NCBI RefSeq assembly: GCF_001187555.1 | Contig: NZ_LFIJ01000002.1 | Coordinates: 745,920-809,919, forward strand | Direction of reading: 5' to 3' | Source of the DNA: Gilvimarinus polysaccharolyticus | Lineage (GTDB): Bacteria; Pseudomonadota; Gammaproteobacteria; Pseudomonadales; Cellvibrionaceae | DNA: 64,000 nucleotides | Shown here: one piece after another, positions 5,042 to 53,611 of the stretch | Position numbering within the stretch: the stretch's first letter is position 1 | How the letters are laid out: each line of letters opens with the position of its first letter | Translations under genes and position numbers: made by a program | The notes under the pieces: model-generated | Databases searched by the model: none | The model's input: only the letters and a program-made list of their open reading frames with translations | Told to the model about the DNA's origin: nothing

Positions 5042-5485
5042 ATGACTAAATTTTTACGCAATAGCTTGGCGGCAACTATGTGGCCGTTACTTGTGTGCAT
5101 TTACGCTGCAAGTGTAAATGCCCAAGATCTTACCCCTTTTACGAGCGATGGTTGTAGCGCCTTTCCCGATGGCACATTTACTCAAGAGCGGCTCTGGCTT
5201 GCTTGTTGTGAAGCTCACGATTTAGCCTATTGGCAAGGCGGCACGTACCAGCAGCGCCTACAGGCCGATGAAGCCCTTGAGGCCTGTGTCGCGCAGGCCG
5301 GTGAGCCAGAGGTGGGGCTGTTGATGTTGGCAGGCGTGCGAGTCGGCGGAAGCCCGATATTTATGACGGATTATCGCTGGGGGTATGGTTGGCCTTACCC
5401 CCGTTGGTATGGTGAGTTAACGGCTGCAGAGCAGAGTCAGGTTAAGAGACTCATGCCCCCTTCCCCGTCGGCACCTGAGCTTTAA
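5042..5485 (+). CDS. Secreted Cys-rich protein with phospholipase-A2-like motif
   Basis: A signal peptide ends near residue 27 (SVNA). The mature part starts [16 protein letters not shown] and carries [13 protein letters not shown], resembling the CC-x-x-HD active-site helix of phospholipase A2 proteins, where the His/Asp pair acts with calcium. A second conserved block reads [20 protein letters not shown]. The protein belongs to a family of small exported proteins in gammaproteobacteria that I recognise but cannot name functionally; phospholipase activity is inference. It converges with the chemoreceptor gene and overlaps its stop by 4 bp. Confidence 0.65.
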
Positions 5486-6978
5486 GTTTTAAACTGCGAC
5501 ATTTCATCACGCAAATTATGGCTCTCTTCATCTAGCACGGCGCTCGCCTCACGCACTACGTCGGCGTCGCGTGAGACGTGTTCGGTTAAATCATGAATGG
5601 CTGTTATATTTTGGCTAACCTCGCCGGCCACAGAGCTTTGTTCACCGGCTGCTGAGGCAATATGATGGTTCATGGCGTTAATCGATTCGATATTAGAGCG
5701 AATCTTTTCTAGCGCACCATCTACTTGGCTTGAGGCCTCGATAGTTTCTTGCACGGCTTTAACGCTGTGTTCCATAGAGTTGTGCGTGTCGTCGGCCGAT
5801 TGTTGCAACTCGACGATAATAGCTTCTATTTCTTCGGTCGACTGTCGGGTTTTTTGTGCCAGCGAGCGCACTTCATCGGCTACCACTGCAAAGCCGCGTC
5901 CTTGGTCACCAGCACGGGCAGCTTCGATGGCAGCGTTAAGAGCAAGCAGGTTAGTTTGTTCGGCAATGGAGCGAATCACTTCCATCACGGAACCAATCGA
6001 ACCGCTGCGCTCGCGCAGCCCCATAATTTTATCGGCGGTAGTTTGAATTTGCGTGGTTAGGTGGTTAATGGTGGTAATCGCCCCCTTAACAATGACTGAG
6101 CCGGCGTCGGCTAAATCTAGTGTGTCTTGTGTGTCGTTAGCGGTTTTGCGTGCGCGGTCTGCAACGTCATCGGCCGAGTAAGACATTTCTTGTAGTGCGG
6201 CCGCGACTTGTTCGATTTCGCGAATCTGCTGTCGAATCGAATCTGCAGTACCCGCAGCGGCGCCGGTCATTTTTTCGGTCTGTTTGGTGACGCTGGTACT
6301 GGATTGGTTAATGCGCTGAATAATAGAGGCGATTTGCTCCATGACTCGGTTAAAGTTTACACACAGCTCGGCAATTTCGTCTTTGCTATTGGTGGGCAGC
6401 CGACGTGTTAAGTCGCCACCGCCATCGGCGATTTCTTTTAGTGATGCACTGACTTCCAGCACCCGATGGGAGACCATCCGTTGCATTAACAGAGCTACGG
6501 TTATTAGTCCGGCTAATAGCAGGGCTATAACGGTAATAATGGTGCTTTGGTTTTGGCTGCCTAGTACCGCTAACATTTGTGCTTGAGAAAAGTCGGCATT
6601 GAAGTAACCAACCAGCTTATCTTTGCGAAAAATCTCGTGGCGTGGGATTTGGGTAATTACGTTGGCGGCCGGTTGAGTGTCGTCTTGACTATTGGCCAGT
6701 AGTTTGCCGCGATGATCGTACACAGAAAACGATGCAATCAGTGGTGTATTGACCAACGATTGGGCGATGGCCTCGATTTGTGCTAAATCGTAAGAGAATA
6801 TTGGCTCGCGCAATGCCGATTCGGCGAGTTGAACTTGACCAGCGACACTGGCTTCAAAGTCTGCTTGTTGTCGTTTACTTTGCAACTGATAGCTAACGCT
6901 AACAATAACGGCCGCGACTAACAGCAGAATAACAGTAAGGGCAAACATTAATTTTATGGTTAGGGTTCTTTTTATCAT
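5482..6978 (-). CDS. Methyl-accepting chemotaxis protein
   Basis: A 498-residue inner-membrane chemoreceptor. TM1 is at about 8-30, a periplasmic sensor of about 110 residues follows, TM2 is at about 143-165, then a HAMP domain and the cytoplasmic signalling rod. The hairpin tip ([20 protein letters not shown] followed by [17 protein letters not shown]) is nearly invariant in the family and contacts CheA/CheW. The gene starts 15 bp after the stop of the binding-protein gene at 6994-7911, so both are probably co-transcribed, which suggests that the binding protein presents a ligand to this receptor. The C-terminus lacks the NWETF-type pentapeptide for CheR tethering. Confidence 0.93.
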
Positions 6979-8100: not shown

Positions 8101-10452
8101 TTATTTCTTCTTCATAGCTTGCTGTAGTAACGCTCCCATGCTGCCTAGCGAGGCTTTATTGTCTCCGTTTGGCGCGTTCCGTCCGCGTGCGTTGCCGCCG
8201 GTGCGGGGGTTATCGCTCTTATTGTTTCGGGCGCGGCGCGGCGTGTCTGCGCCAGTGGTTTTCTCGCCTGGAGTGTCGTCTAGGCGCATTGATAAACCAA
8301 TACGCTTGCGATCGACGTCAACCTCCATCACTTTAACTTTAGCAATATCGCCGGCTTTTACCACTTCGCGGGGATCTTTAACAAAAGTGTTAGACAGTGC
8401 CGATATGTGTACTAGGCCATCTTGATGCACGCCGATATCCACAAACGCCCCAAAGTTAGTAACGTTAGTGACGGTGCCCTCTAAAATCATACCGGGCTCA
8501 AGGTCTTTAAGGGTTTCGACGCCATCTTGGAACTTGGCGGTACGAAACTCGGGGCGTGGATCGCGGCCGGGTTTATCCAGCTCTTTTAAAATGTCGGTAA
8601 CGGTCGGTAAGCCGAATTGTTCGCTGGTGTAATCGGCCGCTTTGAGGCTGCCTAAAAAGGCTGAATCACCAATAAGGCCGGCAATGCGGCGCTCGTTTTT
8701 AGTGGCGATAGCTTCAACTACCGCGTAAGACTCGGGGTGTACCGCCGAGGCGTCCAGTGGGTTGTCGCCCCCAGCTACACGTAAAAAGCCAGCGGCTTGC
8801 TCAAAGGTTTTAGCGCCAAAGCGAGTGACCTTTTTAAGTTGCTCGCGTGAGCTAAAGGCTCCGTTTGTATTACGAAAATCTACGATATTGTTGGCAAGTG
8901 TTGCGTTAAGCCCAGAAACACGCGCTAAAAGTGCCGCCGATGCGGTGTTTACTTCAACCCCCACGGCGTTTACGCAGTCTTCCACGACCGCATCCAGTGA
9001 TCGCGCCAGCTGGGTTTGCGATACATCGTGTTGGTATTGGCCTACACCAATAGATTTAGGATCAATTTTCACCAGCTCGGCCAGTGGGTCTTGCAGGCGA
9101 CGGGCAATGGAGATCGCTCCGCGAATGGTTACGTCTAGGTCGGGAAACTCTTTTGCGGCAAATTCAGATGCCGAGTACACCGAGGCGCCGGCCTCATTGA
9201 CCATTACCGGTTTGGCGCTAAGCTCGGGGTATTTGCCGAGCATGTCTTTAACAAACTTTTCGGTTTCGCGGCTGGCGGTGCCGTTGCCAATGGCGATTAA
9301 GCCGACATTATACTTTTGGCACAGTGCCGAGAGGACTTTTTCGGATTCGGCGGTACGCATTTGTGGCATGGTGGGGAAGATAGCGCAGTGATCGAGCACC
9401 TTGCCGGTGGCGTCTACCACAGCGACTTTAACGCCTGTGCGCAAACCTGGATCGAGTCCTATAGTGGCCTTTTGGCCCGCCGGTGCAGCCAGCAGTAAAT
9501 CGTTAAGGTTAGAGGCAAACACCTTAATGGCGCCCTCTTCGGCGCGTTCGCGTAGCTCTCCTAGCAAGTCGGTCTCTAAGTGGGTTAATAGTTTGACGCG
9601 CCAAGCCCAGCGCACCACCTCAGACAGCCATTTATCGGCGGCGCGATCGTTGTCGCGAATGCGCCAGTGATCGGCTACCATTGCTTCGCAAGGGTGTGAG
9701 CTGGTGGGTTCAGACGGATCGCCCACGACTATGGCAATGGTCAGTACGCCTTCGTTGCGGCCGCGGAACATGGCCAGTGCACGGTGCGACGGAGTGGACC
9801 TAAGAGGTTCATCATGCTCAAAGTAGTCGCGGAATTTCTGCACTTCTTGTGAGGTGTTAGTGTCTTTGCCGCTGGCAACGCGAGCGCTGATGTTGGCCTC
9901 TTTTTGCAGAAAATCACGTAATTTAGCTAGCAAGTTGGCATCTTCGCTGAACTTTTCCATCAAGATAAACTTGGCGCCATCTAGGGCTGCCTTAGTGTCC
10001 TCAATTTTGAATTCAGGGTTGAGGAACTTAGTGGCTTCTGTTTCCGGGTCTAGGGTCGGGTCGGCTAGCAGTCCTTCGGCCAAGGGTTCAAGGCCGGCTT
10101 CGATGGCGATTTGGCCTTTGGTGCGGCGCTTGGGTTTGTAGGGCAGGTATAAATCTTCTAATCGGGTTTTGGTGTCGGCGCTGAGTATCTCGCTTTCGAG
10201 CGCGGGGGTTAGCTTTTCTTGTTCAGTAATACTTTTTAAAATCGCTGCGCGGCGGTCTTCTAGTTCGCGCAAATAACGCAATCGCTCTTCTAGGTTACGC
10301 ATCTGGGTATCATCCAGCCCGCCGGTAACTTCCTTACGGTAGCGGGAGATAAACGGCACAGTGGCCCCTTCGTCCAGCAGCGCCACTGCGGCATCCACCT
10401 GTTGCTCGCGTACATTTAGCTCGTCGGCGATACGTTGAAAAATACTGCTCAT
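8101..10452 (-). CDS. tex: Tex family S1 RNA-binding transcription accessory protein
   Basis: 783 residues, the usual Tex length. An N-terminal Tex helical domain ([19 protein letters not shown] near 35-55) is followed by a YqgF-like RNase H fold ([17 protein letters not shown] near 335), helix-hairpin-helix repeats (about 490-560) and an S1 RNA-binding domain ([20 protein letters not shown] near 655-725). The tail of about 60 residues is basic and Gly/Asn/Arg-rich. Tex is a cytoplasmic nucleic-acid-binding protein linked to transcription and RNA turnover. It stands alone and reads away from the 428-bp gap that must hold its promoter. Confidence 0.97.
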
Positions 10453-46771: not shown

Positions 46772-47200
46772 TTAGCTGGCGCGGGCCAACCAATGGTTGA
46801 GCTCTTGGTGTAAGCGCGAGGTGAAGTGTCTAAAATCGACGGTTTTTTGCAGATAACTGTTGGCCCCCAATTGTCGAGTTTGCACTAAATCTGTGAGTTC
46901 ATCGGAGGTGGTTAGGATCAATACTGGGGTTTGGTGGTGTTCGGCTGAGGCGCGCATGCGTTGTAAGACGCTTAAGCCATTGCCGTGGGGCAGATTGATA
47001 TCCAATAAAACCAATGCGGGCTTTTGTTCTATCGGTCGACTTGCGTAGCGGCCTTGGGCATATAAATACTCAAGCGCTTGCTCGCCATCGGTAACCAGTT
47101 GAATATGATAATCGCCACTGATGTGTTTTAGGCTTAACAGTGCTAATTCGGCATCGTCGGCGTTATCCTCTACCAACAGTATTGTCTCTTTGCTCATCAT
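46772..47200 (-). CDS. Rcp1-like single-domain response regulator
   Basis: About 142 residues, receiver only: ILLVEDNADDAELALLSLKH, phosphorylation Asp67 in LVLLDINLPHGNG and a conserved Lys near the end (YLQKTVDF). This type pairs with hybrid-like or phytochrome-type kinases and works through protein contacts. The ATG at 47200 with AAGG just before it is preferred; the frame runs 60 codons further upstream inside the kinase gene. It overlaps the kinase gene by 38 bp, so they are coupled. Confidence 0.9.
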   Translation of the reverse strand: MMSKETILLVEDNADDAELALLSLKHISGDYHIQLVTDGEQALEYLYAQGRYASRPIEQKPALVLLDINLPHGNGLSVLQRMRASAEHHQTPVLILTTSDELTDLVQTRQLGANSYLQKTVDFRHFTSRLHQELNHWLARAS

Positions 47201-48731
47201 CCTTGGTGCTTTCCTTGAAACAAAAATAAAAAGTGGCGCCCTTATTTGGGGTTGATTCGGCCCATATCCGGCCACCGTGTCGACTGATAATACGCTGAAC
47301 TGTGGCCAGTCCGATACCTGTTCCTTCAAATTCTTCGGCTTTGTGCAAACGTGAAAAAGGCGCAAACAAGCGCTCAGCATAGTTCATGTCGAATCCGGCG
47401 CCATTATCTCTAATATAAAACACCGACTGGCCTTGGTAAAGACATTGCCCGATTTCGATCTGTGCGTGGGCTTTGGGGCGTGTGTATTTAATGGCATTTT
47501 CCATCAAATTGGTTATTAACATCGTAAAAAAGCGCTTATCGGCCCAAGCTTGCAGATTGGGTTGCACCACGAGGCAGATGTCACGTTCGGGCTCGCGTTC
47601 ACGCAGTACCGTAAAGAGCTGTTGGGCTTGTTGAGTGACGTCGATTGGCTCGCGGTGTAGCTCGCCGAGGGTAGCGCGAGATAGATGTAAAAAGCTGTCA
47701 ATCATCTCCGACATCTCAAGCGTACCGGCTTCGATACGGCCTAGATAGTGTTGGCTTTGGTCTGGCAGAAGCTCGTTGCAATCGTCCTCTAGCATGCGAC
47801 GAAAACCTTCAATACGGCGCAGTGGTGCGCGCAAATCGTGAGATACAGAGTAACAAAAGCTGGCCAGCTCATCGTTCGCTGCTTGTAGCTCGGAGGTGCG
47901 TTGTTTGACTCGATCTTCCAGAATGGTGTTTAAGTATCTGACCTCTTCTTCAGCTTTGCGTCGTGCTAGCACGTCACGGGCCAGCGCATCGTTAGCTTGG
48001 CGCATACGATCGTAGGCTTGTGTGAGGTTGTCACTAAGACGGTTAAAGGCGCCGACAACTTGATCCAGTTCATCGTGATGGTTGTGGTTGCGGCGCTCGA
48101 GCTGTAAAGGTTCGGGCGAGTCGGCAACATCAAATTGATTGACGTATTGGGCAATGCGCACTAAGTGTGTGGTGATGAGCCGATAGACAATAAACAGAAT
48201 AAACAGCGACACTAAAAATGTTTTGATGCCTTGTGTAAACAGAATAATAACCAGCTTTTCCCAAAGGCGAGAGTAGACCCCGTTTAATGAGGCCTGAACT
48301 CGAAGTGTCCCGATATGACGCTCGCCGTCTGCGGCATGGTGGGTAATGGCGTAGTCGCGATTGATGGCTCGTTGTTGTGTAAACTCACCTAAGACGATCG
48401 TTAAAGGTTCGGCTATGTCGGCCGGATCTTCATAAATAGCCACCGCCTCTACATCAGGCAATTGTCGGATGCCTTCCATTTGCAGTTTGAGGTGGCTAGG
48501 ATCGAGGTTCCAGAGACTGGCACTAATACTGGCCAAATAGCTACTTTGCACGTCGTCGAGACGTGTTTTGATTTGTCCGATATCCCGTTGAAAGTCGATA
48601 AACAGTTGAAATACGGTAGCCAGTAAGGTGACCAACGAACTAAACAGCACGATTGCAAACAATAGGCGGCGGCCGATGTGATCACTAGATAACGTTGAGC
48701 CGCGATTTAAAAATTTACCCATAGAGTGCAT
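47163..48731 (-). CDS. Membrane sensor histidine kinase
   Basis: 522 residues. TM1 about 22-44, a periplasmic sensor of about 110 residues, TM2 about 160-185, a HAMP-like region (190-245), a coiled coil and HisKA with His298 in SVSHDLRAPLRRIEGF, then the HATPase with NLMENAIKYT, DNGAGFD and GTGIGLATV. The RAPLRRIEGFR type is that of bacteriophytochrome-like kinases that partner Rcp1-type regulators. It starts 1 bp overlapped with the binding-protein stop (TAATG), so the three genes form one operon. Confidence 0.95.
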   Translation of the reverse strand: MHSMGKFLNRGSTLSSDHIGRRLLFAIVLFSSLVTLLATVFQLFIDFQRDIGQIKTRLDDVQSSYLASISASLWNLDPSHLKLQMEGIRQLPDVEAVAIYEDPADIAEPLTIVLGEFTQQRAINRDYAITHHAADGERHIGTLRVQASLNGVYSRLWEKLVIILFTQGIKTFLVSLFILFIVYRLITTHLVRIAQYVNQFDVADSPEPLQLERRNHNHHDELDQVVGAFNRLSDNLTQAYDRMRQANDALARDVLARRKAEEEVRYLNTILEDRVKQRTSELQAANDELASFCYSVSHDLRAPLRRIEGFRRMLEDDCNELLPDQSQHYLGRIEAGTLEMSEMIDSFLHLSRATLGELHREPIDVTQQAQQLFTVLREREPERDICLVVQPNLQAWADKRFFTMLITNLMENAIKYTRPKAHAQIEIGQCLYQGQSVFYIRDNGAGFDMNYAERLFAPFSRLHKAEEFEGTGIGLATVQRIISRHGGRIWAESTPNKGATFYFCFKESTKDDEQRDNTVGRG

Positions 48732-49492
48732 TACAGCTCGTGCAGTTGCTGAATGGTATTAAAGACGCCTTCGTTATGCATATCACGTAATGCCTGATTA
48801 ATTACGGGCATAGCGTCTAAATGTGTCGATAGTTTAGAGCACTGGAACACTAAGGGAATATTGCGCAGCACTAAAGGCTCACCCAGTGATTCGGTAATGC
48901 CTTCGAGTCGAGCTATATACAGTAGAGTGGGAATGGCACCAACCACCACATCGACCCGGCCTCGAGCGACTTTACGCAAACCCGTAGCGTAATCGGTATC
49001 AAACACTTTCTCGAGCTCGCTATCGGCATCAAACCGCTCGCTTAGCGATCCACCACGCAACACGGAAATTCTTAGATCATTTAAGTCCTCGTAACGACTC
49101 AGTGACACACCTTTGCGCGGAATAGCTCCAAGAGGGTGCGGAAAAGTCAGTTCACCCGTGACGACTTTCTCTGAGTTAAGTGGCGCCAGAATGGTGCAGT
49201 CTTGTGTGCCTCTTTCAATTTCTCGGCCCGCGCGGGCGAATGGGGTGATGGTCATCTCAAATTGATAATCAGTGCGCTCCTCCAAAGCTTTGACTATATC
49301 GACAAATGCGCCTTCCAGCTCATTACTCTCGACGGAGCGCGAGGCCCACGGCGGCGCGGCGATGGTGACAATTTTTAAGGCTGGCTTGGGTGAGGGGTCG
49401 GCATTGCCGAGTGTGGGCAGTAACACCAGCAGCGCGGCTAGGGGCACACCTAGGTGGCACCGGATCATTTTAAAAAAAGCATGACTTTTCAT
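48731..49492 (-). CDS. Periplasmic amino-acid-type binding protein, sensor partner
   Basis: 253 residues with a signal peptide ending near NADP. The mature domain is SBP_bac_3-like: LKIVTIAAPPWASRSVESNE, GAFVDIVKALEERTDYQFEM, and VDVVVGAIPTLLYIARLEGI. No ABC transporter genes are near; instead a sensor kinase follows with a 1-bp overlap. It likely binds a solute and triggers the kinase's periplasmic domain, or it senses by itself. Ligand unknown. Confidence 0.88.
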   Translation of the reverse strand: MKSHAFFKMIRCHLGVPLAALLVLLPTLGNADPSPKPALKIVTIAAPPWASRSVESNELEGAFVDIVKALEERTDYQFEMTITPFARAGREIERGTQDCTILAPLNSEKVVTGELTFPHPLGAIPRKGVSLSRYEDLNDLRISVLRGGSLSERFDADSELEKVFDTDYATGLRKVARGRVDVVVGAIPTLLYIARLEGITESLGEPLVLRNIPLVFQCSKLSTHLDAMPVINQALRDMHNEGVFNTIQQLHEL

Positions 49493-49694
49493 TGATTTGC
49501 GTCTCGCTATTGATGGGGGCTCACGTATTTAAGTCCAGTGATCAGTATAGCGTGACTTGTTCGGCTAGTCAGTCTCCCTTTCCTCTCGACTGTGACGCCT
49601 CTGTCGTGGAGGGTTTCGGCCTTTCGCATCGTTATTTTACAAACAAATTACCTCTGCATCATGGCTCAGCATAATTCTAGCTACTATCAAAAGG

Positions 49695-49726
49695 CGGCAC
49701 AATTTTCCTCATTCGTGGGTGTGCCG
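49695..49726. promoter_or_regulatory. Inverted repeat upstream of the AfsA-type gene
   Basis: CGGCACA (49695-49701) and TGTGCCG (49720-49726) are perfect 7-bp arms with an 18-nt spacer, 42 bp before the ATG. It may be a regulator site or a leader hairpin. The divergent 276-bp gap upstream serves both this gene and the binding-protein operon. Confidence 0.4.
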
Positions 49727-49768
49727 TGAAGCTGTAATTCATCTATTTAATAGTTAAGAGGTAATACC

Positions 49769-50566
49769 ATGAACGATCGTATTTTATTAGTAGTTGGTGA
49801 CAAGTTTGCTCCTTACATTGTGCAAAAAGAGGCTATCACGGTTTCCCAGTTACATGGGTTGCTGAGTTTGCCGGTCCATATTCTTGGTAATCAAGAGCGC
49901 ACGGTATTGGTGCCTGGTCAGGGTATAGGTGATATTAGTCGTCAGCGGTTGCTAGCGGCGGCGAGTCAGTCGAGCAATGTATCGGGGTTTGATTTTTCAC
50001 TGTGGCACAACTTGCCCGAGCGTGCCAGCGGTGCCCTATCGCACAAGGCCGAAGTGTGTAATGTTTTGGTGTCGATGCCCCATCAAGTGTCTGCCAGTGA
50101 GTATGAGCTGGCGATGATGATCGATGAAGACTGCGAGTTAATGAAGGACCATTTGAGTGGTCAGCATGTCCAAGGGATGGTTGTTATTGAGGCTGCTCGG
50201 CAAGCGATGCTGGTGGTTACCGAGGCGTATTTAATGCCTAAGTCTGTTATCGATTATGCCTTCGTGTTTAACGCCTTATCGGTTAGCTATAGTCATTATG
50301 CTTTTCCTGTTAGTGCGATGATTCGCACTCATATCACTGAGTGTGCGATAGACAATCCTAAGTTCTTAAAGTTTGCTGCGATCACCCGTGTCGAACAGTG
50401 TGGGCGCTCGGTGGCCGAATTTACCATGTCGTTTTCTGCTATGGAAAAATCTAGGTTAGTTAAGCAGGAGAGGATGCAGTCGGTTAAGGCGCATCGTCAG
50501 TTTGTCAGCGCCGTTGCGGCTGAACTGGAAACGCCGCAAACACTGGTTGAGCATGCACACCGATAA
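49769..50566 (+). CDS. AfsA-type hotdog-domain protein
   Basis: 265 residues, no signal peptide. The AfsA hotdog core is visible at about 90-235: SHKAEVCNVLVSMP at 91-104, a DH at 127-128, and HVQGMVVIEAARQA at 133-146, which is the hallmark of A-factor synthase AfsA (DH then GM-x-x-EA-x-RQ). AfsA joins a beta-ketoacyl-ACP to dihydroxyacetone phosphate on the way to gamma-butyrolactone signals in Streptomyces. This copy seems to hold one full hotdog block and a diverged N-terminal 90 residues, shorter than the about 300-residue double-hotdog AfsA. AGAGGT precedes the ATG. The HAD-IB gene follows after 27 bp. Product unknown. Confidence 0.85.
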   Translation: MNDRILLVVGDKFAPYIVQKEAITVSQLHGLLSLPVHILGNQERTVLVPGQGIGDISRQRLLAAASQSSNVSGFDFSLWHNLPERASGALSHKAEVCNVLVSMPHQVSASEYELAMMIDEDCELMKDHLSGQHVQGMVVIEAARQAMLVVTEAYLMPKSVIDYAFVFNALSVSYSHYAFPVSAMIRTHITECAIDNPKFLKFAAITRVEQCGRSVAEFTMSFSAMEKSRLVKQERMQSVKAHRQFVSAVAAELETPQTLVEHAHR

Positions 50567-50593
50567 ACTCCCATCAAATAGAGGTGAAAGGTT

Positions 50594-51274
50594 ATGAGCA
50601 ATATTAAACCGTTAACAGCTGAGCATTGTTATGCATTTTTTGATGTGGACAATACCTTGATTACGCAAAATAGTATGTTGAGCTTTCAGAATTATTGGTA
50701 TCAAATGTATCCTGATTTGGCGGCGGAGTCATTATATCGCGCCGATTTAATGACACATGTACACGAACATGCCTGTTGGGAGACGCTGAATAAACTTTAC
50801 TACCGTCATTTTTCTGGTCGATCAGTCGCGGCGTTAACCGATGCTGGAGAGTCTTGGTTTAAACAACAGCTGCAGCGTTCCGATGGCTTTTACTACCAAG
50901 CAGTATTACGAGAGCTACGCCGCCATCAAGAGAATGGTTTTGAGGTAATAATGGTGTCGGGTTCTTTCTCTGCGGTATTAACTCCTATTGCGCGTGATTT
51001 AGGGGTAGAGAAAATACTGTCCTCGCAAATGGAGGTTCGTGCAGGTGTATACACTGGTTACTTGTCGGCACCACCGATGGTGGGAGCTGGTAAGCGTGAT
51101 GCTGTGAAAGCATTGCTGTGCAACACCCGTGTTGCACAATCTAGTTATGCCTACGGGGATGATATATCGGATATTCCCATGTTGAGCTTGGTGGGGTATC
51201 CGGTGATGGTATCCGGTGGACGGCTGTCACGTACAGAGGTGGATAAATTGGGTTTTCGATTAATCACAGTTTAA
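50594..51274 (+). CDS. HAD-IB family phosphatase linked to AfsA-type gene
   Basis: 226 residues with nucleophile and acid/base Asp17 and Asp19 in FFDVDNTLI, motif II VSGSFS, motif III Lys167 and motif IV YGDDISDIPML, matching the SerB-like IB group that hydrolyses phosphoserine and lipid or glycerol phosphates. AGGTGAAAGG precedes the ATG. It lies 27 bp after the AfsA-type gene; in A-factor synthesis a phosphatase is needed after the AfsA step, so this is a good candidate for that role (inference). A hairpin at 51447 may end the pair. Confidence 0.9.
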   Translation: MSNIKPLTAEHCYAFFDVDNTLITQNSMLSFQNYWYQMYPDLAAESLYRADLMTHVHEHACWETLNKLYYRHFSGRSVAALTDAGESWFKQQLQRSDGFYYQAVLRELRRHQENGFEVIMVSGSFSAVLTPIARDLGVEKILSSQMEVRAGVYTGYLSAPPMVGAGKRDAVKALLCNTRVAQSSYAYGDDISDIPMLSLVGYPVMVSGGRLSRTEVDKLGFRLITV

Positions 51275-51342: not shown

Positions 51343-51439
51343 CACCCCAAGGTACGCGGTGCAACGCGAAAGCGCTTGAGTAACAGTACCTGAACAATAC
51401 GCTCAATCACGATTGTCGATACAGCACCGGGTGCCTTGG
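51343..51439. repeat. Long interrupted inverted repeat
   Basis: The 16-bp arm at 51347-51362 (CCAAGGTACGCGGTGC) is repeated in inverse form at 51424-51439 (GCACCGGGTGCCTTGG), 14 of 16 matching, with 61 nt between. Each arm also contains a local GCACC/GGTGC pair, and the middle has TTGAG/CTCAA. This looks like a folded RNA or a site for a recombinase or regulator; no attC-type GTTRRRY core was found. Confidence 0.5.
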
Positions 51440-51446
51440 CGATGTG

Positions 51447-51464
51447 GGCCGCTAGAGAGCGGTC
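51447..51464 (+). terminator. Possible terminator of the AfsA/HAD pair
   Basis: GGCCGCT pairs with AGCGGTC (one G-U pair) around AGAG, followed by TTTATGGTTT. It is the only T-rich-ended hairpin before the converging GGDEF/EAL gene. Confidence 0.45.
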
Positions 51465-51493
51465 TTTATGGTTTAATACGTCCGGAAATATTC

Positions 51494-53611
51494 TTATAGG
51501 CTATGCAGTTGTAATTCGATTTTTTGTTGTAACTCGTCAATAGCAATAGGTAAGCTAAATAAAAACCCTTGGGCTTGTTTACAGCCAATTTTTAGTAATA
51601 ATTCACGTTGCTCTTGAGTTTCAATCCCTTCCGCCACCACATCTAAGCCGAGCCCTTGAGCCAGTAAAAAAATAGTATCAACCAGTCGATGAGAATTATC
51701 ACTTTCATGCATTCCGGCAACAAAACTACGATCGATTTTTAATGTATGTAACGGGTAGCGCTGTAGGTAACCCAATGATGAATAGCCGGTGCCAAAATCA
51801 TCTACCGATAACCGTATGCCGAGCTCCGAAAGAGCATTTATGTTGTCGTTGGTGGTGTTGGCGTCATTGACTAAAACACGTTCGGTAATTTCTATTTCAA
51901 GTTGGTCGGCATTAATTTTATAAGCCTGAAGTTGATCGGCTACAAAATTTGCGTAGCCAGGGATTTCTAGTTGACGCGGCGAAATGTTCAGCGCCAGGCG
52001 TAATCCCCCTTCACTATTGCGCAGCAATTTTGCAGTTTCACGGCACGCCGTCTTAAACACCCAGCTGTCAATTTCTTGAATGATACCAATGTCTTCTGCT
52101 ACAGGGATAAAGTTGTTGGGCATGCGTATTGTGCCGTCGGTCTGATGCCAGCGAACTAATGCTTCAAACCCTACAATAGTATTGTCTGCAAGATTAAAAA
52201 TAGGTTGGTAGTGCAATAATAATTCATTACGCTTAACAACATGGCGTAGCTTTTCTTCTAAATCTAATCGATCAATGAGTTGATCGTTAATCTCTTGGGT
52301 AAAAAATTGAAATTGGTTGCGACCCTGATCTTTGCATTGGTACATGGCAAGATCGGCATTGCGCAAGAGTAAATGGGGGTTGCTGGCATCGTTGGGGTAA
52401 ATGGCGATACCAACACTACATGTTACAAAATAATTGCGGCCAATAATGAAGAATGGCTCGGTAAACTGTTCAACGATACTCTGCGCTATTTTTTCAGCGG
52501 TAGTATTGTCATTTAAATTTGGCAATACGGCGACAAACTCATCGCCGCCCATACGGGCAAGGGTGTCTCCTGGTCGCATGCAGCGAGTCAAGCGTGCGGC
52601 AGCCTCTTTAAGTAAAAAGTCACCAACACTGTGCCCGACACTGTCGTTTACATTTTTGAAATGATCGAGATCGATTCCAAGTACGGCAACCAGGGTTTGT
52701 CGCTGGGTTGCCTCTTGCAGAGCTTGAGTTAGTTGTTCGATCAGCCGGACACGATTTGCGAGGCCGGTCAGGTCATCGTAGTGCGCTTGGCGCAACAATT
52801 GTTGTTCGTAATTACGACGTACAGTGATGTCTTCTTTGAGTATGAGATTGTGACTTAATCTATTGTCGATATCGGTCAGAGGCGAGACTTTAACGTTTTC
52901 CCAGTAGAGTTCGCCGTTGGCTCGTAAGCTGCAGACCTCACTCCGCCATTGTTGACCGCTGTTAACGGCGCTGCTTATTTGTTCCATGATTTGCAGGCGA
53001 TCTTCTTCTAGCAATGTAAAGCCTAGCGTTTGTCCAATCGCTTCACTTGCGTTGTAGCCGCTGACAGTTTCAAAGCAGGGGTTAACATACTGAATTTCAC
53101 CCTCAGGACTGGTAATAATGACAGACACAGGGCTTTGCTCCAGCGCTTGAGACAAAACCCGTACCTGTGCATCGGCGCGGCGGCGCTGTTCGCGGATACT
53201 GGCCTCGCGCAGCTCACGTTCAATGGCCGGCACTAGGCGCGCCAGCGCATTTTTGTTCATAAAATCGTGCGCGCCTCGCTTGAGCAGGCTGACGACATCT
53301 TCGGCGCTGACGGCGCCGGACGTAATAATAAATGGTAGGTCTTTACCGCTCTCTTTCAGGGTGTCTAGTGCAGCTTCGGCGCTAAAGCGGGGTAGGCGAT
53401 AGTCGCAAATAATTAAATCCCACGGGTGGTTAGCTAATGCGTTGTGCATATCGTCGCGGGTTTCAACTTGTTGTATCTCTGGGGAGAAACCGCCGCGAAC
53501 CAGTTCGGCGGCAGTGAGTTCGGTGTCGGCTTCTGAGTCCTCGACAAACAGTACCTTGAGTGGTGTTCCCATGCGGCATTCCATTCCTAGGCTAGGGGTG
53601 GTCAATATCAT
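51494..53611 (-). CDS. REC-PAS-GGDEF-EAL c-di-GMP signalling protein
   Basis: 705 residues: receiver (Asp70 in LIICDYRLPRFS), PAS at about 150-260 (SVIITSPEGEIQYVNPCFET), GGDEF with intact MGGDEF motif near 355, and EAL with FEALVRW near 480 and VAEGIETQEQ near 665. Both halves look catalytic, so it could synthesise and degrade cyclic di-GMP; dominance is unknown. The receiver suggests control by an unlinked kinase. In-frame Met at 53584 and 53572 are alternative starts; the latter has GGA 7 bp upstream. Confidence 0.95.
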   Translation of the reverse strand: MILTTPSLGMECRMGTPLKVLFVEDSEADTELTAAELVRGGFSPEIQQVETRDDMHNALANHPWDLIICDYRLPRFSAEAALDTLKESGKDLPFIITSGAVSAEDVVSLLKRGAHDFMNKNALARLVPAIERELREASIREQRRRADAQVRVLSQALEQSPVSVIITSPEGEIQYVNPCFETVSGYNASEAIGQTLGFTLLEEDRLQIMEQISSAVNSGQQWRSEVCSLRANGELYWENVKVSPLTDIDNRLSHNLILKEDITVRRNYEQQLLRQAHYDDLTGLANRVRLIEQLTQALQEATQRQTLVAVLGIDLDHFKNVNDSVGHSVGDFLLKEAAARLTRCMRPGDTLARMGGDEFVAVLPNLNDNTTAEKIAQSIVEQFTEPFFIIGRNYFVTCSVGIAIYPNDASNPHLLLRNADLAMYQCKDQGRNQFQFFTQEINDQLIDRLDLEEKLRHVVKRNELLLHYQPIFNLADNTIVGFEALVRWHQTDGTIRMPNNFIPVAEDIGIIQEIDSWVFKTACRETAKLLRNSEGGLRLALNISPRQLEIPGYANFVADQLQAYKINADQLEIEITERVLVNDANTTNDNINALSELGIRLSVDDFGTGYSSLGYLQRYPLHTLKIDRSFVAGMHESDNSHRLVDTIFLLAQGLGLDVVAEGIETQEQRELLLKIGCKQAQGFLFSLPIAIDELQQKIELQLHSL

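Follow-up and report, generated by a model that had tools for sequence, protein, structure and literature searches.

A conserved five-gene module around an AfsA–HAD gene pair in Gilvimarinus and its possible role in butenolide signalling to cyclic di-GMP

In Gilvimarinus polysaccharolyticus, a stretch of 64,000 nucleotides (assembly GCF_001187555.1, contig NZ_LFIJ01000002.1, positions 745,920 to 809,919; hereafter, the window) carries two adjoining genes on the forward strand. The first (49769..50566) encodes an AfsA-type single-hotdog protein of 265 amino acids (aa), a putative phosphorylated-butenolide synthase judging from its sequence, and the second (50594..51274) a HAD-IB phosphatase of 226 aa that is proposed to remove the phosphate from what AfsA makes. 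Three reverse-strand genes surround this pair. On one side lie a solute-binding protein (SBP) of the SBP_bac_3 type (48731..49492; PF00497, 3e-6), whose N terminus looks by eye like a signal peptide and which is proposed to be a periplasmic receptor, and a 522-aa CHASE5 histidine kinase (47163..48731; CHASE5 at 2.1e-22, HisKA and HATPase_c), the proposed transducer; on the other lies a 705-aa REC-PAS-GGDEF-EAL response regulator (51494..53611; domains by Pfam), the proposed cyclic di-GMP (c-di-GMP) output. SBP and kinase form an operon divergent from the pair, base 48731 being common to both open reading frames (ORFs), and the REC-PAS-GGDEF-EAL gene is convergent with the HAD gene. With the pair at their centre, the five genes form a conserved module, which on balance we consider slightly more likely than not to constitute a self-contained cell-to-cell signalling circuit running from a butenolide via SBP and kinase to c-di-GMP.

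The evidence that carries this reading comes from 195 related genomes, 30 of them AfsA-positive, in which each flanking gene was searched for separately. Orthologues of the SBP were found in 19 genomes (E ≤ 6e-35; next match 2e-22), as were those of the kinase (E ≤ 1.5e-108; next 2e-76, with the best seven candidates scored per genome) and of the GGDEF-EAL protein (E ≤ 9e-207; next 6e-148, best five candidates). These 19 genomes are an identical set, all AfsA-positive, and the co-occurrence of SBP and AfsA gives a Fisher p of 5e-19 with phylogeny ignored; the 19 are not independent because all fall in six genera of one family. Comparison over ~20 kb around AfsA revealed the same layout in several genera. 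The SBP gene adjoins AfsA in 18 of the 19 (the exception being G009) and the GGDEF-EAL gene adjoins HAD equally often, the exception here being G003, where the orthologue is kept on another contig. One genus, g2, includes members with the module and members without it. Gene content, motifs, conserved linkage and co-occurrence are matters of direct observation.

Two variants of the locus deserve mention. In L180, the locus of the symbiont genome G009 (5364-6970 and 8894-9499), the kinase reads as two overlapping frames, and next to the SBP, where the contig ends, stands an ORF resembling istB of the IS21 type (by eye); the module there may be in decay. L044, L048 and L180, of genus g3 (Endobugula type), have two SBP genes in tandem in place of a single one, possibly for two ligands or two affinities.

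An earlier, sequence-only reading of this DNA had assigned the first gene of the pair to the AfsA hotdog family, and the profile places it there: PF03756 matches residues 92-223 with 60.7 bits (gathering cut-off 24, E 2e-16). The hallmarks named in that reading—DH at 127-128, GM at 136-137 and EAARQ at 141-145—are all present, and H92, K93, N98, D127, H128, M137, E141, R144 and Q145 are invariant in the alignment (27/27 homologues). The hotdog occupies residues ~85-226, and the AlphaFold model (pLDDT 89.5, from a 27-row alignment) contains a single hotdog, with a long helix at its centre, preceded by a small alpha/beta part (residues 1-90) that has no Pfam match. The N-terminal 90 residues (49769-50040) carry an invariant GQG in this alpha/beta part. 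Among the Foldseek matches listed for the model are FabZ dehydratases and hotdog thioesterases, with the anammox FabZ 7qv0 (E 4.8e-7) and 8ayb among the first (TM-score by target 0.71-0.74), and a PDB sequence search yielded nothing significant, its best match (E 0.42) being a FabZ-like dehydratase. FabZ acts on substrates bound to acyl carrier protein (ACP) and pairs a histidine with an acidic residue ~14 positions away, a spacing that H128 and E141 of the AfsA protein resemble.

ScbA/BarX synthases have two tandem AfsA hotdog domains. That the protein is a canonical Streptomyces gamma-butyrolactone synthase is ruled out by its single AfsA domain and by its score of 22.2 bits against the ScbA/BarX equivalog NF041195 (cut-off 200), the match covering positions 6-145 of 290. 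With the C-terminal repeat of an ScbA-type Streptomyces protein (L185, the sole double-hotdog sequence compared), it aligns over DH..H..G..EAxxQ only.

The second gene follows after exactly 27 bp and, in agreement with the sequence-only reading, encodes a HAD-IB phosphatase with complete motifs: TIGR01490 scores 121.9 bits (cut-off 98.3, E 4e-35), and DxDxT, SGS, K and GDD-SD are retained in 19/19 module copies. Histidinol-phosphatase and SerB were both rejected on their equivalog cut-offs (76.9 vs 280 bits and 38.4 vs 144 bits, respectively). The pairing itself was surveyed in 101 AfsA loci, 30 from the relatives and 71 of 80 wider loci, the 80 having been taken from at least 91 confirmed AfsA loci in a wider scan of genome contigs; nine duplicates and L060, the second polyketide synthase (PKS) locus of G183, were left out. 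The 71 loci, among the matches listed, presumably represent Alpha-, Beta- and Gammaproteobacteria, actinobacteria, a myxobacterium and others, and they include the alphaproteobacteria Kiloniella and Ferrovibrio. In relatives, 27/30 loci have a HAD-IB gene no more than 5 kb from AfsA (27/27 on the same strand, 23 within 100 bp), so the pairing is conserved, in keeping with that reading; in the other loci the figures are 62/71, 61 and 27. Against this stand two HAD matches in 828 kb beyond 5 kb in the same loci, each ~6 kb from AfsA, and these rates rule out chance adjacency. The control understates unrelated HAD genes because the profile was built from 23 HAD proteins neighbouring AfsA and a threshold of 140 bits was required.

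The pair is not, as had been supposed, undescribed. An AfsA and HAD-IB pair is already in print for Chromobacterium subtsugae, where it is up-regulated at high density, is accompanied by DUF2165 and MarR genes and belongs to the genes classed as dependent on acyl-homoserine lactones (PMC12114271). Locus L105 of our survey is from that species, and it holds the same two-gene pair but no match to SBP, kinase or GGDEF-EAL. PMC8719888 describes an A-factor-like cluster and a ketosynthase-AfsA PKS in Pseudomonas and cites salinipostin-like clusters for 12 phyla. Our survey also turned up a second recurrent setting of AfsA (most of L079-L106, L120 and L126), in which a LysR gene, a ~203-aa protein, AfsA, a ~277-aa protein and HAD lie together, often with major facilitator superfamily, carboxymuconolactone-decarboxylase-like, thiolase and aldo-keto reductase genes; in L106 (Vibrio), the sole locus of this setting checked for families, neither the 203- nor the 277-aa protein matches a Pfam family at 1e-5.

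What the pair might make can be gauged from published chemistry. In gladiostatin/gladiofungin biosynthesis of Burkholderia gladioli, a PKS-fused, Gram-negative PBS (AfsA) domain joins a 3-ketooctanoyl thioester to dihydroxyacetone phosphate in vitro, and subsequent treatment with shrimp alkaline phosphatase yields a 2-acyl-3-hydroxymethylbutenolide with no reductase (PMC7756379). Because this chemistry needs no reductase, a pair of AfsA and phosphatase can be a complete short path, and by analogy a butenolide product is chemically reasonable. From its family, its conserved residues and this precedent, AfsA is predicted to condense a beta-ketoacyl thioester from fatty-acid synthesis with dihydroxyacetone phosphate to a phosphorylated 2-acyl butenolide, from which the HAD-IB protein, given its linkage, would take off the phosphate.

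The gladiostatin domain differs from the module's AfsA in serving as a chain-release domain of a PKS and in having an antibiotic as its product. An antibiotic-like or membrane-active butenolide that is no signal, with the c-di-GMP genes linked for an unrelated reason, would fit this Gram-negative case of demonstrated AfsA-domain chemistry, and it would fit the occurrence elsewhere of AfsA–HAD pairs in larger, biosynthetic-looking clusters (L054, by eye) or beside PKS genes ending in AfsA. Conservation of the three sensory genes in the 19 module loci, which have no further gene cluster in common within ~20 kb, argues the other way, and we consider such a role improbable. As for the clusters themselves, L054 (2610-11002, by eye) has AfsA and HAD amid an acyl ligase, an ACP, an FAD monooxygenase, a hydrolase and an EmrAB-like export pair, and looks like a candidate butenolide natural-product cluster. 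L051 (6771-10642) and L056 (13784-17793), in two relatives, have a PKS with a C-terminal AfsA domain and an adjoining HAD-IB gene, reminiscent of the gladiostatin release domain; their AfsA domains keep HK, N, the H of DH (with E for D) and EAxRQ.

In the signalling circuit, which we prefer, the lipophilic butenolide would exit the cell by diffusion and be captured by the orphan periplasmic SBP, as linkage and co-occurrence suggest. The loaded SBP would dock on the CHASE5 domain and activate the kinase, which, to judge from the intact motifs, would alter phosphorylation of the REC-PAS-GGDEF-EAL protein and thereby c-di-GMP, possibly making cells change from attached to free life, or back, as population density changes. 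A factor that is released, accumulates with density and is sensed by its own producers would amount to quorum sensing, the behaviour proposed for this circuit. The phospho-acceptor histidine of the kinase is present in 18/18 rows, the REC aspartate in 17/17 rows with that region, and GGDEF and EAL in 17/18 each, so that both output domains look active from their sequences. A role of the SBP as part of an ABC importer was rejected, as no permease was found among the annotated neighbours, which are a subset of all neighbours. The sequence-only reading had supposed the rest of the path to be elsewhere or different, for want of a reductase and an ArpA-like receptor. It was right that no ArpA-like TetR receptor and no BprA-like reductase are among the six module genes, the regulator described at the end included (the rest of window and genome was not searched for them), but candidates for receptor, kinase and output lie on either side of the pair and are found together with it.

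Among known systems, the layout resembles Rpf/DSF (RpfF-RpfC-RpfG; PMC9864630), in which a synthase of a fatty-acid-derived signal is linked with a sensor kinase and a c-di-GMP regulator; the likeness is one of layout, the synthase role being a predicted one here. RpfF is of the enoyl-CoA-hydratase type, whereas the module uses an AfsA hotdog and a HAD phosphatase; it also has a separate SBP, and its output is REC-PAS-GGDEF-EAL in place of HD-GYP. Pfam finds neither an RpfF-type synthase nor an HD-GYP domain in the five module genes. With the A-factor/gamma-butyrolactone system of Streptomyces (AfsA/ScbA, BprA, ArpA), the module has in common the PF03756 family and the expected first reaction, but its AfsA has one domain with another N-terminal part and its candidate receptor is periplasmic. 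LuxP-LuxQ is a precedent for a periplasmic binding protein and a sensor kinase that together read an autoinducer, AI-2. Here, the SBP is of the SBP_bac_3 type, and the kinase carries CHASE5 as its sensor, with no LuxQ periplasmic domain among its Pfam matches.

The ligand of the SBP is a point on which the circuit is open to challenge. The SBP model (pLDDT 90.9) adopts an amino-acid-type binding-protein fold, and the top sequence and fold matches, among those listed, are mostly amino-acid-binding proteins; a few sensor domains appear as well, for instance one from a kinase and the binding-protein domain of RmcA. In favour of a butenolide, alignment of the SBP with an ancestral arginine/glutamine binder puts the ER arginine at a variable position and a later aspartate opposite a gap, the two residues that hold the amino acid in such binders. 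This missing-residue argument could be an alignment shift, however, because most SBP orthologues have an arginine one column earlier (the window SBP has leucine). Furthermore, adjoining SBP and kinase genes are not always linked in function, and three SBPs near two kinases bound gamma-aminobutyrate (GABA) or 5-aminovalerate (PMC11113362).

Such observations lend themselves to another explanation, in which the cue read by SBP and kinase comes from outside—an amino acid, or something released when plant or algal matter is broken down—and the AfsA–HAD product is one of the outputs, a secondary metabolite and not the ligand. The amino-acid-binding character of most of the nearest solved SBP relatives, the GABA- or 5-aminovalerate-binding SBPs just cited and the polysaccharide-degrading genes near the module (the glycoside hydrolases GH115 in L034 and GH26 in the window) would all be in line with it. 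Yet these hydrolase neighbours are not found in all loci, whereas AfsA, SBP, kinase and GGDEF-EAL occur together in 19/19, and the conserved output is a c-di-GMP protein, so kinase control of afsA would presumably be indirect. We regard the outside cue as unlikely, if less so than the antibiotic role.

The signalling circuit also has to accommodate that 11 of the 30 AfsA-positive relatives lack the signalling genes, that the module has no exporter, and that product, ligand, SBP–kinase contact, phosphotransfer and phenotype are steps we infer. Versions outside the family add to both sides. In Kiloniella laminariae, AfsA (43%), HAD, a CHASE5-PAS kinase and the SBP are present but a REC-PAS-GGDEF-EAL orthologue is not, the best match (1.7e-100) covering the GGDEF-EAL part only. 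A Ferrovibrio metagenome-assembled genome has AfsA (44%), a CHASE5 kinase and an orthologue of REC-PAS-GGDEF-EAL (51% identity); no HAD was found in this genome, and its SBP_bac_3 match is sub-threshold (21.7 vs 26.4 bits) and 21% identical to the window SBP. Because gene orders differ in Kiloniella and Ferrovibrio, the linkage either survived rearrangement or arose anew. Across the phylum, 398 genomes gave five SBP matches at 1e-25, including two from Gilvimarinus. Two weaker ones (5e-30 and 6e-28) come without AfsA, and the clearest exception is G346, which has neither AfsA nor HAD and whose strong SBP (6e-76) is at the end of a contig. In L177 (9291-10046), from a distant proteobacterium, a strong module-type SBP stands at a contig end with no AfsA found; a lone SBP of this kind may reflect an assembly gap or an eavesdropper.

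These outlying versions bear on yet another possibility. RpfR senses the diffusible signal factor BDSF via a PAS domain, and by the same token the butenolide might be sensed intracellularly by the PAS domain of REC-PAS-GGDEF-EAL, with SBP and kinase as a second input to that protein. Both the window and the Ferrovibrio proteins have the PAS domain, and the contrast in Ferrovibrio between 21% identity for the SBP and 51% for GGDEF-EAL suggests that the receptor there may not be the SBP. Kiloniella, by contrast, has AfsA, HAD, SBP and kinase without REC-PAS-GGDEF-EAL, though its kinase carries a PAS domain of its own, and GGDEF-EAL is better conserved than SBP in 8/8 pairs with both proteins (against AfsA, it is higher in four, equal in one and lower in three). 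Intracellular sensing accordingly strikes us as a long shot.

If SBP were the receptor of the AfsA product, the two might be expected to diverge together, and the 19 module genomes offer suggestive evidence of this. Correlations were computed for 16 of them, omitting G057 (split rpoB), G009 (locus without SBP/kinase) and G003 (detached GGDEF-EAL). With rpoB removed, SBP distances show a partial r of 0.64 with AfsA, 0.53 with GGDEF-EAL and 0.42 each with HAD and kinase. Trees of 18 or 19 rows point the same way: Gilvimarinus is monophyletic by rpoB (100/100), but AfsA rejects its monophyly (approximately unbiased test, p 2e-6), as does SBP marginally (p 0.03). The genus hypothesis was derived from taxonomy, and a clade of the window with Marinimicrobium was picked from earlier FastTree trees.

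Pairs of closely related genomes were compared as well, nine by protein, six by synonymous change and two along the DNA. It is in the two closest pairs, which follow, that the module is conspicuous. In L034/L037 (rpoB 99.0%), the five module proteins are 56-75% identical and the right-flank proteins 94-99%; the corresponding values are 56-74% and 89-98% for DNA identity and 0.75-0.88 vs 0.14-0.19 for synonymous divergence (pS). Two genes on the left side are 94-96% identical, with pS of 0.57-0.62. In L046/L050 (rpoB 99.5%), pS is 0.52-0.55 for kinase, SBP and AfsA, 0.29 for GGDEF-EAL and 0.09-0.42 for other neighbours, and the HAD genes are 94.6% identical when counted without the stretch overlapping AfsA. 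DNA identity within this module reaches its minimum of 71-76% over the SBP start and the SBP/AfsA intergenic region, which may reflect low constraint. Positive selection was rejected as an explanation for the divergence: where dN/dS could be estimated, in 10 of 25 comparisons, it is 0.02-0.29, the other 15 being saturated. The combination of high synonymous change and low dN/dS is more readily explained by exchanged old alleles than by rapid change of the proteins.

A good deal of the same material counts against joint exchange of synthase and receptor. AfsA distances correlate with HAD (0.74), kinase (0.70) and GGDEF-EAL (0.64), and because AfsA tracks these proteins equally well, its correlation with SBP may be plain linkage. 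Neither Gilvimarinus monophyly (HAD, p 0.14) nor the clade of the window with Marinimicrobium (p 0.18-0.45), whose support is 69/92 for AfsA and 89/87 for SBP, is rejected by HAD, kinase or GGDEF-EAL. A strict swap of synthase and receptor with the rest inherited vertically is therefore not established, as the trees of these three proteins are weakly resolved. In L034/L037, the divergent tract is wider than the module because GH115 and DUF6491 beside it are also divergent (66-73% identity, pS 0.76-0.77; GH115 DNA 53-85%); in L046/L050, DNA identity falls further (to 62%) beyond the module, and little contrast is seen in the remaining four pairs compared by synonymous change. The least conserved module protein is HAD or SBP, never AfsA, in 9/9 pairs. 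That synthase and receptor travel and diverge together is thus a suggestive lead, not a result.

Taken together, the locus comprises more than the pair, and it is somewhat more probable than not that the module is a signalling circuit of known logic built from a new set of parts. In actinobacteria, AfsA-type signals are known to act through intracellular receptors of the TetR type, and we know of no receptor for the products of Gram-negative AfsA–HAD pairs. Such pairs are spread over Gram-negative bacteria, and the module supplies specific candidates for their receptor, kinase and output; if the circuit is real, it would join butyrolactone-type hormones and c-di-GMP lifestyle control, two large fields, in marine bacteria. 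A bolder proposal, which we put forward tentatively and hold to be possible but rather less than probable, is a new Gram-negative class of quorum sensing in which butenolides of the A-factor family are read outside the cell by SBP and kinase to set c-di-GMP, with synthase–receptor pairs as diverged allelic types exchanged among marine bacteria, comparable to the specificity types of the agr and com systems. We rate its chances slightly lower because the partner of SBP that has diverged most is often HAD and not AfsA. The pair is already known; the signalling module around it is without a report among the literature matches listed, where no AfsA–kinase–c-di-GMP module appeared (titles and starts of abstracts, with most subscription papers and all preprints outside coverage), and matches for Gilvimarinus and quorum sensing were unrelated (titles and abstracts).

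Of the remaining features, a stand-alone REC-only regulator (46772..47197, reverse strand; PF00072 at 1.6e-18 over 46775-47197) overlaps the kinase gene. Its start at 47197 (MSKETILL) was chosen by us, the mechanical ORF beginning at 47380. It adjoins the kinase in 14/19 module loci and, not being universal, is regarded as accessory. No structured RNA reaches the gathering score of an Rfam family within the window. DNA comparison covered the divergent intergenic region between SBP and AfsA, which spans 276 bp (49493..49768). Finally, the sequence-only reading had a hairpin ending the pair. An inverted repeat (51347..51439; 16-nt repeat, 61-nt loop) and a terminator-like stem (51446-51465) do lie in the convergent gap between HAD and GGDEF-EAL, but the case for a hairpin is weak, with 10 such stems in 7.3 kb against 8.7 in shuffles; the unit of the inverted repeat is single-copy in the genome.

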